DNA of 14,547 bases from Eubacteriales bacterium (GTDB lineage: Bacteria > Bacillota_A > Clostridia > Christensenellales > Aristaeellaceae). The notes under the pieces are model-generated. The model searched no databases. It saw only the letters and a list, made by a program, of their open reading frames with translations, and was not told the DNA's origin. Both the position numbers and the translations under genes were made by a program. The DNA lies in contig JAUMYC010000020.1 in assembly GCA_030528845.1 (NCBI GenBank), positions 4,495 to 19,041 on the forward strand, in the 5' to 3' direction. This document shows, piece after piece, positions 9,402 through 14,379 of the stretch (within the stretch, counting starts at the first letter, position 1; every line of letters begins with the position of its first letter).

Positions 9402-9893
9402 TCAGCGCCCGAAGAGCTGCACCCAATAGGTCACGCCGTTCACCGTGTAGGCGCATGTGCCGATCTTCGTGTAATGCGCGCGCAGCACATTGGCCCGATG
9501 CCCTGCCGAGGACATGAGCGCCGCCTGACATTTGTACGCCGTGGCATAGCCGCGCGCGATGTTCTCCGCATATGCGCCGGAATACACGCTCGACCAGCTC
9601 GTGCCGTCGGGCCGGGTATGGCTGAAATGGCGCGCGATCTCCTTCGCGCGGGTCTGCGCGGCGCGGCTGAGCGCGGCGTCCTCGCGCAGCGTGCCGAGGC
9701 CGTAGCGCAGCCTGTCCGCGTTCACCTCGGCGATGAGCTCCTGCCCGAGCGCGTCGGAAAAACCCTCCGCCGGGCCTTGCGTCAAAAAATAGCCGTTCGG
9801 GCTGTAATAGCGTGCGGCCTGCGCACGGGCTGCGCCGGGCAGCAGCAGCGCCGCGGCGGACAGCGCCGCCAGCAATTTCCTGCCTGCGTTCAT
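9402..9893 (-). CDS. Secreted CAP-domain (SCP/PR-1-like) protein
   Basis: A 163-residue exported protein. The signal peptide has a positive start (MNAGRK), a hydrophobic core (LLAALSAAALLLP) and a likely cleavage site after ARA near residue 24. A single CAP domain follows from about 48. It shows the helix starting LIAEVNADRLRYGLGTL, RHFSHTRPDG (88-97), AENIARGY (109-116), SAGHRANVLRAHYTKIG (129-145) and the final strand TYWVQLFG. The conserved cavity residues H92, E110 and H132 are present. Two cysteines (C122, C147) could pair. Bacterial CAP proteins resemble B. subtilis YkwD; their biochemical role is mostly unknown. AGGAGGGG lies 8 bases before the ATG. It is transcribed alone from the promoter at 9945-9974. 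Confidence 0.92.
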   Translation of the reverse strand: MNAGRKLLAALSAAALLLPGAARAQAARYYSPNGYFLTQGPAEGFSDALGQELIAEVNADRLRYGLGTLREDAALSRAAQTRAKEIARHFSHTRPDGTSWSSVYSGAYAENIARGYATAYKCQAALMSSAGHRANVLRAHYTKIGTCAYTVNGVTYWVQLFGR

Positions 9894-10038: not shown

Positions 10039-10608
10039 TTATTTTCTTCTCCGGGCTACCAGCGCGCGCAGCTTCTCCCGCAGCCGTTCGCCTCTCTTCC
10101 CAGAGAGAACGACTGCGGCAACGCCGGCGACGGTCAGCGCCCAGAAGAGCCCGACGAGAAATTCCAGGTCGTATTCGCGGACGAAATAGCGATAACTCAG
10201 GCCCGTGATCCGCGAGTCCCAATGATATCGGGTCGTTCCGCTTTCTTCGACGATCTTGGGGATCATCACCTCCACAAAGCGGGAGACGCTGTAGATCGCG
10301 AGATTGCCCAGCGCGCCGAACGCCGCGACGCACAGCCCCGCGACCACGGCGATCCTGCGCGCAGCAAGATCCCGTGTGGAGCGGACGGCGGGCACGTCCC
10401 GGTCGCTCTGATAATCGTCGTTGAGCAGATAGTCCGTCGTCACGCCGAAGAGCTTGCTCAGCTGCAAAATATTCGCCGCGTCCGGCATCGCGCTGCCGGA
10501 TTCCCAGCGGGAAACGGCCTGCCGGGAGACGGCCAGCTTTTCCGCCAGCTGTTCCTGCGACATGCCGCCGCTCTTGCGCAGCCGCGCGATCTTCTCCGAA
10601 AGGTTCAT
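10039..10608 (-). CDS. XRE-family transcriptional regulator with two membrane helices
   Basis: A 189-residue protein. Residues 5-60 form an HTH_3 domain: IARLRKSGGMSQEQLAEKL, then AVSRQAVSRWESG (26-38, recognition helix) and the closing segment VTTDYLL. After a polar linker come two hydrophobic segments (about 85-107 and 150-169), separated by about 42 residues containing paired Tyr/Arg positions, and a very basic tail (ARRRK). With the DNA-binding domain cytoplasmic, the middle loop would face outside and could sense a signal. The start at 10608 is preferred to the upstream ATG at 10644 because AGGAGG lies 8 bases before it and MNLSEKIARLR is the usual start of such domains. It could regulate itself or the CAP gene downstream; an inverted repeat lies upstream at 10682-10697. 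Confidence 0.88.
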   Translation of the reverse strand: MNLSEKIARLRKSGGMSQEQLAEKLAVSRQAVSRWESGSAMPDAANILQLSKLFGVTTDYLLNDDYQSDRDVPAVRSTRDLAARRIAVVAGLCVAAFGALGNLAIYSVSRFVEVMIPKIVEESGTTRYHWDSRITGLSYRYFVREYDLEFLVGLFWALTVAGVAAVVLSGKRGERLREKLRALVARRRK

Positions 10609-10681
10609 AGGCCAAGCCTCCTTTTCTCTGTTTTGCTCCCCCATCCTACCAAAAACCGCCGCTTTCGGCCACCGCTTTTAC

Positions 10682-12157: not shown

Positions 12158-12276
12158 GCGGGGCGCGCATGTTTTTGCGCCGCCCCTCCCCTGCAGAATG
12201 AAAAGCCGCCCTTCGTTTAACGCGGAATTTACACGCAGCATCTCCCCTCCGGCACGGCAAGAGCTATCTAATAAGC

Positions 12277-12308: not shown

Positions 12309-12324
12309 AGAAACACAGCGCAGG

Positions 12325-12331
12325 AAGGAGG
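12325..12331 (+). promoter_or_regulatory. Ribosome binding site that fixes a TTG start
   Basis: AAGGAGG stands 7 bases before the TTG at 12339, ideal spacing. No ATG or GTG in this frame has a comparable site, and the frame upstream (from 12198) codes for nothing recognisable. Confidence 0.8.
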
Positions 12332-12338
12332 TATCCCT

Positions 12339-12803
12339 TTGGACAAGGCCGAATTCACCCGCCGGGCAAGCGGCTGCGCCAAACAGCTGTACAAAATATC
12401 ATGGTGTATCCTGCGCAGCAACGCCGACTGCGAGGACGCTGTGCAGGAGGCTCTGCTGCGCGCATGGGCCAAGCTGCACACCCTGCGCAATGCCGATCAT
12501 TTCGAGACATGGCTCACCCGCATCCTGATCAACGAATGCAGAGGCATGCTCAGGCGCAGGCAGCGCACCGGCACGACAGAACTGACCGAAAACATTGCCG
12601 CACCGGATGCAGCCGAAGGCGATGTTTTCGCAGCCATACAGCGGATGGACAGACGCTATGCCATGCCGCTGCTGCTCAGGCATATGAGCGGATACACAGT
12701 CGGCGAGATCGGAAAGATACTGCGCATTCCGGAAACGACGGTGAAATGGCGGCTGAAGGAGGGGCGCAGGCGACTGCGCGCTCTGCTCGCCGCCGAAGGA
12801 TAA
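12339..12803 (+). CDS. ECF-type RNA polymerase sigma factor
   Basis: A 154-residue alternative sigma factor of the extracytoplasmic function group. Region 2 spans about 12-75, with LYKISWCILRSNADCEDAVQEALLRAW (here in two helices, 17-43) including the D-C-E-D-A-V-Q-E-A core-binding helix, then FETWLTRILINECRGMLRRR. Region 4 spans about 96-150, with the helix-turn-helix GYTVGEIGKILRIPETTVKWRLKEGRRRLR (in parts, 118-147). Length is normal for a minimal ECF factor. It starts with TTG, which may lower its expression. The stop is 11 bases before the ATG of a single-pass membrane protein with its own AAGGAGG, the usual sigma/anti-sigma operon order, so its activity is probably set by that protein. 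Confidence 0.93.
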   Translation: MDKAEFTRRASGCAKQLYKISWCILRSNADCEDAVQEALLRAWAKLHTLRNADHFETWLTRILINECRGMLRRRQRTGTTELTENIAAPDAAEGDVFAAIQRMDRRYAMPLLLRHMSGYTVGEIGKILRIPETTVKWRLKEGRRRLRALLAAEG

Positions 12804-12814
12804 GGAGGTCCATC

Positions 12815-14080
12815 ATGAACAGAAATGACAACGCTTTCGATTTTGAAAAGGCGGCGCCGGAAATGCCCGACGCCTTCCTCAGGCGCATCCACACGACCTG
12901 TGAGACCCTGCCGGAAAAACAAACGCATGTGCCGCTGATGAAGGTCGGCGCGGCGGTGGTGGTCTGCCTTGCGGCGGTGCTGGCCGTGTTCTTCTCCATC
13001 GGCAGGCCCGGCGGCGTGCCGGACATGCTCACCCCGCTGACGCAGAGCATATCCGATGGCGAGACAGACCTGCCCGGCGAGGGCGGCGGCGAAGAGCAGG
13101 CCGCAGAGCAGACCGAAGAAAAAGGCCATTACTCGTTCAATCCCGACGGCGCTTTCTACCACTGCATCCCCTATTGTCAGGGCGAGCGCAACCGGCTCAA
13201 CGGCCCGCTGAGCGTGGCCTCTGAAAACGGCCGCACCGCATGCCCGGTCTGCCTCGATGCGGAATATACCGACCCCGCGTTCGTGCGTGAAGGGCATACT
13301 GTAGATGAGATGAGAGAGGCCTACGCGCTCACATGGCCGTTTGAAGCCAATACTTATGATGATCAGGGCGTCATGTTTGAAGGCGATGTATATCTCTACG
13401 AATACACCTTTGACCCGTATTACCATGTGGATCCCGAAAAATGCGGCGCAGGCACGAAGGACGATATGCTCAAAACGATCCGCCAGATGGCCTACCGCCG
13501 ATACGAGCGCGAGATCTGCCTCACCTGCGCGCCAGTGCGCGATCTGGATCTGATGTTCTGGCTCAACGAAGGCGGCCGTTTCTACCACAAGGATAAGGAA
13601 TGCTGCGGCGAAGTGATGCAGGTGTACACCACGCTGGAAAATGCGGTGAAGGTATACGATGTGCCCTCGCTGTGCCCGTACTGCTCCGGCCTTAGGAGAG
13701 AAGGCGACGCCGATGAACCGACCCCCGATGAGATCATCTCGATCAACTGGAGCACCTACGAGATCACGCTCAACAGCGAATGGGCTTACCGCGAGGTGCA
13801 CCTTGCCGAGAACGGCGTCTACCACTATGATGCGCTCTGCACCGAAGGCGAACTCGAGCCGATGAGCCAGCTCATGGCCGTGCGCGACCACGAGGCCGCG
13901 CCGTGCATCGAGTGCATGGGCCCGTACACGCGCAATCTGGCCGTCTGCTTCAACGAAGGCGATGCGCTGTACCACGCGATGAGCATGTGCGGCGGCAGCC
14001 AGCTGAGCAAAAAGGCGTTCCAGTATGATGCGATCGGACACGGCATGACCCTCTGCTCCGAGTGCTTTAGGAACTATTAA
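12815..14080 (+). CDS. Putative membrane anti-sigma factor with five extracytoplasmic Tyr-His/Cys/CxxC modules
   Basis: 421 residues. The N-terminal ~40 are cytoplasmic and look like a short anti-sigma segment (FDFEKAAPEMPDAFLRRI). A single membrane helix follows (about 41-62), then an acidic linker (80-103) and a large extracytoplasmic region. Five modules repeat there, each with Tyr-His, a Cys 5-6 residues after the His, and a C-x2-C 22-25 residues later. They are H116/C121/C143-C146, H204/C210/C235-C238, H258/C263/C287-C290, H337/C342/C364-C367 and H387/C392/C414-C417. Most modules have a strand and turn before the Tyr-His (NEG, ENG or PDG). Each His-Cys-Cys-Cys set suits one zinc or iron ion, or redox-active cysteines. 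The cytoplasmic part lacks the HxxxCxxC of ZAS anti-sigma factors. The anti-sigma role rests on operon position and topology; the sensing role is inference. I do not recognise the whole architecture. Confidence 0.8.
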   Translation: MNRNDNAFDFEKAAPEMPDAFLRRIHTTCETLPEKQTHVPLMKVGAAVVVCLAAVLAVFFSIGRPGGVPDMLTPLTQSISDGETDLPGEGGGEEQAAEQTEEKGHYSFNPDGAFYHCIPYCQGERNRLNGPLSVASENGRTACPVCLDAEYTDPAFVREGHTVDEMREAYALTWPFEANTYDDQGVMFEGDVYLYEYTFDPYYHVDPEKCGAGTKDDMLKTIRQMAYRRYEREICLTCAPVRDLDLMFWLNEGGRFYHKDKECCGEVMQVYTTLENAVKVYDVPSLCPYCSGLRREGDADEPTPDEIISINWSTYEITLNSEWAYREVHLAENGVYHYDALCTEGELEPMSQLMAVRDHEAAPCIECMGPYTRNLAVCFNEGDALYHAMSMCGGSQLSKKAFQYDAIGHGMTLCSECFRNY

Positions 14081-14096
14081 GCATGACGGAGGAAAG

Positions 14097-14145
14097 GCAG
14101 GGGGCTCTGCCCCCTGCACCCCTGTTGCGCAGGGCTCTGCCCCGC
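14097..14145 (+). repeat. G/C hairpin pair after the anti-sigma gene
   Basis: GCAGGGGGC (14097-14105) and GCCCCCTGC (14109-14117) form a 9-bp stem around loop TCT, 16 bases after the stop codon. A second, imperfect hairpin (14129-14145, one A-C mismatch) has the same TCT loop. Both are type-A hairpins of the composite repeat without their B partner, and could serve as a U-less transcription end or a 3' stabiliser. Confidence 0.7.
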
Positions 14146-14150
14146 ACCCT

Positions 14151-14209
14151 TGCAGGGGGCTCCGCCCCCTGCACCCCTGCCAAAGGGTCATTGACCCTTT
14201 GGAATCCCT
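14151..14209 (+). repeat. Composite double-hairpin repeat, copy 2
   Basis: Hairpin A has a 10-bp stem (14151-14160, loop TCC, 14164-14173). A linker containing ACCCC leads to hairpin B (CCAAAGGGTC 14180-14189, loop ATT, GACCCTTTGG 14193-14202). The tail GGAATCCC ends it at about 14208. It is in the same orientation as the upstream sigma/anti-sigma genes. Confidence 0.8.
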
Positions 14210-14297
14210 TATTATGGGTATGTACATAAAACTCTGTTATTCTGTTCTGCAGAAAATCGTGGTTTTCTCGAAAATATCCATTTGGGGTTCCTTTGCT

Positions 14298-14379
14298 GCG
14301 CGGGACTTCGCCCCGCGCCTTGGCAGGGGGCTCCGCCCCCTGCACTCCCGCCAAAGGGTCATCGACCCTTTGGAATCCC
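14298..14379 (+). repeat. Composite double-hairpin repeat, copy 3, with an extra G/C hairpin
   Basis: An extra hairpin (GCGCGGG 14298-14304, CCCGCGC 14312-14318) precedes hairpin A (14323-14331, loop TCC, 14335-14343), a linker with ACTCCCG, hairpin B (14351-14360, loop ATC, 14364-14373) and the tail GGAATCCC. Between copies 2 and 3 lies about 85 bases of AT-richer sequence in which I see no gene. Confidence 0.8.

Follow-up and report, generated by a model that had tools for sequence, protein, structure and literature searches.

The locus analysed here raises the question of what a membrane protein encoded directly behind an ECF sigma factor might do with five His-Cys-Cys-Cys (HC3) modules on its outer part. 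The ectodomains of anti-sigma factors set what a bacterium senses from outside, and few of these inputs are known. The window, by which we mean the whole stretch of DNA that was analysed (14,547 nucleotides of contig JAUMYC010000020.1, from an Eubacteriales bacterium), encodes on its forward strand an ECF sigma factor (12339..12803) with Pfam matches to Sigma70_r2 (3.1e-14) and Sigma70_r4_2 (2.7e-9); one general ECF superfamily model of NCBIfam lies above its cut-off among the 25 matches listed. The open frame of this gene extends from an ATG at 12198, and translation probably starts instead at the TTG at 12339, because a good ribosome-binding-like sequence, AGGAAGGAGG (12322..12331, forward strand, as read in the sequence), precedes the latter. 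Eleven bases further on, on the same strand, begins the gene of the membrane-anchored anti-sigma candidate (12815..14080, 421 aa), preceded by a ribosome-binding-site-like AAGGAGG that was likewise read in the sequence (12802..12808, forward strand). An earlier note on this DNA had placed the membrane protein directly after an ECF sigma gene; the 11-base gap agrees with this, and the pair is kept in a distant orthologous locus, L082. Near the sigma operon, the complementary strand carries genes for a CAP-domain (PF00188) protein (9402-9893) and an HTH_3 regulator (10039-10644). The intergenic region behind the anti-sigma candidate gene (14097-14379) contains palindromic repeats, in which an 86-nt unit occurs twice (87% identical) and a 28-nt unit, GCAGGGGGCTC(T/C)GCCCCCTGC, occurs three times.

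Translation of 12815-14080 yields the five Tyr-His-x4/5-Cys-x21-24-Cys-x2-Cys modules that had been described, all encoded on the forward strand. Module 1 comprises residues 115-146 (13157..13252; putative ligands H116, C121, C143 and C146), module 2 residues 203-238 (13421..13528; H204, C210, C235 and C238), module 3 residues 257-290 (13583..13684; H258, C263, C287 and C290), module 4 residues 336-367 (13820..13915; H337, C342, C364 and C367) and module 5 residues 386-417 (13970..14065; H387, C392, C414 and C417). In agreement with the spacing reported earlier, 18 residues separate the final Cys of module 2 from the Tyr of module 3, and 18 likewise separate module 4 from module 5; the full series of gaps is 56, 18, 45 and 18. 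When the protein sequence is shuffled 20,000 times, the strict module never occurs more than once and a looser pattern never more than twice, as against the five observed, which rules out a chance motif.

The protein has a single membrane span (residues 44-62, 12944..13000, forward strand, Kyte-Doolittle 2.8); the best Kyte-Doolittle window starting outside residues 30-75 reaches 0.72, and a hydrophobic segment is present at the matching position in the homologues P0002 and P0003 and in L082. The part before the span (residues 1-42, 12815..12940, forward strand) is predicted to be cytoplasmic and, on the basis of its score against an N-terminal profile, is the candidate sigma-binding part. Beyond the span, an acidic linker leads to the module array, and the ectodomain from residue 67 on has 62 Asp/Glu vs 26 Lys/Arg. 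Pfam and NCBIfam scans give no family match for the protein, DUF4179 included, and its structure model (pLDDT 33) is too poor to judge whether the ligands of a module cluster.

Only three whole-protein relatives besides the window protein itself are found by a protein search (P0002, P0003 and P0004), with 59-75% identity to it over aligned residues. The putative ligands are kept in these at 56 of 56 positions (20/20, 20/20 and, in the shorter P0004, 16/16) vs 13 of 29 positions for the other Cys and His residues (7/12, 6/12 and 0/5, respectively), which argues for selection on the putative metal ligands. Among the remaining cysteines is C264, which adjoins the module 3 ligand C263 and is replaced by Arg in P0004. 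The earlier statement that the four ligands of the modules show no decay therefore holds in these three relatives and fails in the distant orthologue L082, whose third module is missing its first Cys and reads CxC where CxxC is expected, the other four modules being intact.

The gaps between modules 2, 3, 4 and 5 (18, 45 and 18) are kept in the homologues, apart from a change of 45 to 43 in P0004. The spacing had been read as the trace of a duplicated two-module block beside a lone first module, and the similarity of block 2-3 to block 4-5 (z=4.2) fits this reading, but that of block 1-2 to block 3-4 is nearly as high (z=3.7). Blocks 1-2 and 4-5 show no such similarity (z=-0.2), the odd modules are mutually alike (z 2.8-3.0), and module 2 is like module 4 (z 2.7) and less like module 3 (z 2.2). 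The z-scores are modest, and the module similarities lend modest support to a duplicated block plus a lone module.

The full-length alignment has no match in genome_contigs or viral_contigs, the L123 and L083 proteins have none in viral_contigs, and the module alignment has none among short proteins at E 0.01; the best match of the module profile to the PDB by sequence is a ribosomal protein at E 0.11. A further protein search adds 12 anti-sigma-like proteins (P0005-P0016); judged by eye, P0015 and P0016 no longer have the module.

The neighbouring amidohydrolase provided an anchor into named genomes, the closest of which is RUG12806 (G001), an uncultured Clostridiales metagenome-assembled genome. 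This genome carries the orthologous pair L082, on another contig than the amidohydrolase and with overlapping sigma and partner genes; the sigma factor is 51% and the partner 27% identical to its counterpart in the window. Within the 200 genomes of the G001 family, a profile of the partner matches 68 at E 0.001, many of these matches being modules on other proteins, and a related sigma factor is present in 199 at E 1e-15. Ninety of the best-scoring 93 sigma loci were examined, without G096:C100 and G169:C301, which lie near a contig end, and G138:C15, which is the module-bearing L122. A downstream frame is found at 87 of the 90, the contig ending at that point in L164, L173 and L197, and a hydrophobic span is present within the first 110 residues of all 87. 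In 86 of 87 cases the frame begins no further than 2 bases beyond the stop codon of the sigma gene, and in 57 the two genes overlap by 4 bases. This closeness is in some measure built in by the script, which looked for starts from -70 to +250 bases relative to the sigma end and in L145 took one upstream of the likely GTG.

Modules, from one to nine per protein, are present in 31 of the 87 downstream proteins by profile and in 26 by strict pattern, counted after longer stretches had been fetched for 12 loci; the 31, from which L141/L137 with a module in another frame are excluded, cannot be taken as an unbiased estimate of frequency, since module or N-terminus searches had supplied the loci behind nine of the ten sequences in the sigma profile. 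Without the nine loci already recruited in this way, the counts are 25 of 78 and 21 of 78, respectively. As a background, the strict pattern occurs in two of 1234 frames of at least 250 aa, spurious ones included, in the 80 amidohydrolase loci L001-L080 from other genomes, and both are L,D-transpeptidases. Among the anti-sigma candidates, those of L186 and L177/L271 have nine modules each by profile, in 691 and 1060 aa. At L137:2500-3010, the C-terminal module of the sigma partner gene lies in a different frame, through either an assembly error or a real frame break.

The pairing of sigma factor and membrane protein is thus kept in L082, and its architecture is found again in a set of kin loci of one family: the array is real, conserved and, far from being singular, recurrent. 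What the earlier note proposed stands as to a sigma-paired membrane protein with putative metal ligands under selection. Its author knew of no such array on an anti-sigma factor, and this presumed rarity is not supported, since 31 of 87 related sigma-adjacent genes carry modules, up to nine of them; an array unique to the window is ruled out by the same loci. In one Clostridia family, many ECF-linked membrane proteins have acquired from one to nine copies of a small domain for which Pfam has no dedicated model.

In the window, TATCTAAT (12265..12272, forward strand) resembles CGTCTA(A) and may be a weak -10-like element of the sigma operon; we infer this role tentatively, because the window has no exact match to CGTCTA(A). 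Among 30 regions upstream of sigma genes, which belong to 29 related genes and the window and are mutually related, so not independent, CGTCTA occurs in 14 (expected 1.1, sd 0.8), AAC-N15-18-CGT(C/A) in 12 (expected 2.6, sd 1.5) and GAAAC-N14-18-CGTC in none; both of the motifs found are absent from the window. A longer pattern, CAACC-N15-18-CGTCTAA, derived from the same kin loci at which it was then counted, occurs six times in seven genomes, never more than once per genome and not at all in G087, and five of the occurrences are located just upstream of a sigma gene, the lone exception being in G161. The kin pairs with CGTCTA-type motifs upstream of their sigma genes may therefore be autoregulated, and their promoter differs from that of the window.

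Beyond the sigma-linked loci, a class-wide search of Clostridia gives a module match at E 1e-5 in 30 of 291 genomes. The expectation that similar units occur on other secreted proteins is confirmed by nucleases, metallo-beta-lactamase-type hydrolases and L,D-transpeptidases that carry them. When 20 host proteins from these 30 loci were scanned with Pfam, six matched Endonuclea_NS_2, five metallo-beta-lactamase (hydrolases that we take to be ComEC-like) and one SNase, and eight had no nuclease or metallo-beta-lactamase match. A sigma-like frame is present near two of the 30 loci. One is the pair of G001 itself; at the other, L239, the frame is weak and lies beyond the module genes. In L011:11290-14020, two tandem L,D-transpeptidase genes adjoin an amidohydrolase gene, with two related YYNPxGGxYYH modules in one and a single module in the other. 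Large proteins with many modules are encoded in L127-L136 (frames of about 580-1215 aa), L081 and L083; most have, by eye, an acidic start and hydrophobic spans, and 9-21 modules are counted by a loose overlapping pattern that takes some of them twice. None of the ten loci L127-L136 has a related sigma gene.

The modules of the window family are, as judged by profile comparison, kin of those on the other anti-sigma candidates (hhalign 98%, score 56, vs 9.1, sd 2.8, maximum 23, in 100 shuffles that keep the Cys and His columns). The occurrence of the module on secreted nucleases as well suggests that a structural metal is at least as likely as a sensor. As the earlier note suggested, the HC3 sites could do the sensing themselves: a change in their occupancy by zinc or a different metal, or oxidation of surface thiols, would alter the ectodomain and so free the sigma factor. 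Putative ligands that are strictly kept in close homologues while other Cys and His vary would be expected of such a system, and the range of one to nine modules among relatives could allow a graded response. A metal sensor would, however, make little sense on secreted nucleases, metallo-beta-lactamase-type hydrolases and L,D-transpeptidases; the number of modules varies freely among kin, one of the five is decayed in L082, and the eight other window genes scanned with Pfam include no metal-homeostasis gene. We regard this model as unlikely.

The first 44 residues of the window protein score 23.7 bits against a profile of 81 ECF-linked N-termini, built from kin loci rather than from RsiV and without the window; when the profile was run against 1000 shuffles, 955 were reported, the best at 13.4 bits. 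At E 0.01, DUF4179 is matched by 21 and DUF5643 by seven of 88 proteins (the 87 kin proteins and the window protein), the window protein matching neither. A re-scan of ten members finds DUF4179 in four, all at 20.1-27.4 bits and thus below the Pfam cut-off of 30.1, and DUF5643 in three, one of them above its cut-off. DUF4179 has been described as confined mostly to Firmicutes and, it appears, to anti-sigma families of the ECF30 type such as RsiV and BAS1627, and cleavage of RsiV frees its sigma factor (PMC6066255). Gene order and topology suggest that the window pair works like this DUF4179/ECF30-type class, a likeness that does not extend to formal membership, and the pair would then belong to an ECF30-like class with weak DUF4179 similarity.

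The weakness of that similarity, together with the absence from the window protein of a match to any known anti-sigma domain, leaves some room for a membrane protein that is merely co-transcribed with the sigma factor, for example as its target or accessory. Such an arrangement is quite improbable, as the pair is kept across distant genomes, with the 4-base overlap at most of the kin loci, the N-terminus is common to kin, and DUF4179-like relatives occupy the same gene position.

The fold of the modules may be related to that of the Ada zinc domain. A pooled alignment of 59 modules (without the near-duplicates L142, L170 and L172) scores 28.5 against a five-sequence Ada-like profile, vs 10.4 (sd 2.8, maximum 20.3) for shuffles; none of the shuffles that keep the Cys and His columns reaches the score of the pooled modules, in 200 local or 100 global comparisons. 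The corresponding probabilities are 92% in local and 34% in global mode, and the default comparison aligns only the C-terminal 23 columns. The modules of L229, L230 and L231 exceed the cut-off of PF02805 (Ada_Zn_binding). The window-family modules alone give no significant match to the Ada-like profile (3%; 13.9 vs 10.7, sd 2.6, maximum 19.3), and a scan of 36 modules with the HMMER filters on gives no PF02805 match for any of them at E 10, which rules out formal membership in that family. On this comparison of profiles, the module class probably has an Ada-like zinc fold; we infer it for the window modules only by extension, because of the two latter results. In a model of P0005, each module is predicted as strand-strand-strand-helix, with a mean pLDDT of 58-78 over 10-residue blocks, and Ada is not among the structural matches listed. 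P0005 (residues 226-403) and its relatives also have a C-terminal domain after the modules; its residues 311-403 are modelled with a block mean pLDDT of 83-93, and no clear structural relative was found for them.

The Ada domain contacts DNA, and modules that bind nucleic acid or another phosphodiester polymer, with the pair sensing extracellular DNA or a wall polymer, would suit the likeness of the pooled modules to Ada and the nuclease or metallo-beta-lactamase matches of 12 of the 20 scanned module-bearing proteins, but this is very improbable given an acidic ectodomain unfavourable for polyanions, the other eight proteins without such a match, and the L,D-transpeptidases that carry the module too.

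The explanation that we favour, with somewhat better than even confidence in it as a whole, starts from what is observed: the two genes are paired, here and repeatedly elsewhere, the partner has a membrane span, its putative ligands are conserved, and its modules are kin to a wider family. The short N-terminus would hold the sigma factor at the membrane. Each of the five Ada-like HC3 modules would be folded around one metal ion, most likely a structural zinc, and together they may form a multivalent binding ectodomain. Binding or loss of an envelope or environmental ligand would then lead to regulated proteolysis of the anti-sigma protein, which would free the sigma factor.

A more far-reaching idea, which we consider rather unlikely, is that tunable arrays of one to nine Ada-derived His-Cys3 domains act in a gut-type Clostridia family as ECF anti-sigma receptors for an extracellular polymer (DNA, RNA or wall polyphosphate) or for the surface zinc state. 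If so, such arrays would represent a hitherto undescribed type of ECF receptor; the openly licensed literature, as far as its accessible texts go, yielded no published description of the module domain. The presence of one domain on both ECF-linked proteins and secreted nucleases provides a comparative handle on its binding target and on the origin of new ECF receptors.

Among the closest known systems, clostridial secreted nucleases and metallo-beta-lactamase hydrolases (for example L229, L231, L235 and L254) have the same YH/FH..C..CxxC ligand pattern as the window protein, mostly in one C-terminal copy rather than in an array. The N-terminal zinc domain of Ada (PF02805; PDB 1adn, 1eyf, 1wpk, 1zgw and 1u8b) shares with the modules the order ligand-x3/4-Cys followed by CxxC. 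Its first ligand is a Cys, the acceptor of the methyl group, whereas the modules have His at this position and, in the window, are located on the outer part of a membrane protein. The ZAS anti-sigma factors, such as RsrA and ChrR, have their zinc motif in the cytoplasmic sigma-binding domain. They resemble the window protein in having Cys/His zinc-type ligands on an anti-sigma factor, a candidate one in the window; unlike theirs, its N-terminus has no HxxxCxxC, and a ZAS-type factor is ruled out, residues 1-43 holding only H26, C29 and H38. The RsiV/DUF4179 (ECF30) anti-sigma factors of Firmicutes are likewise membrane proteins paired with an ECF sigma gene (PMC6066255). Some kin proteins in the same gene position have DUF4179 similarity around the membrane span, below the cut-off in the four matches that were re-scanned; the window protein differs in having no DUF4179 match, and in it HC3 modules take the place of the lysozyme-binding domain.
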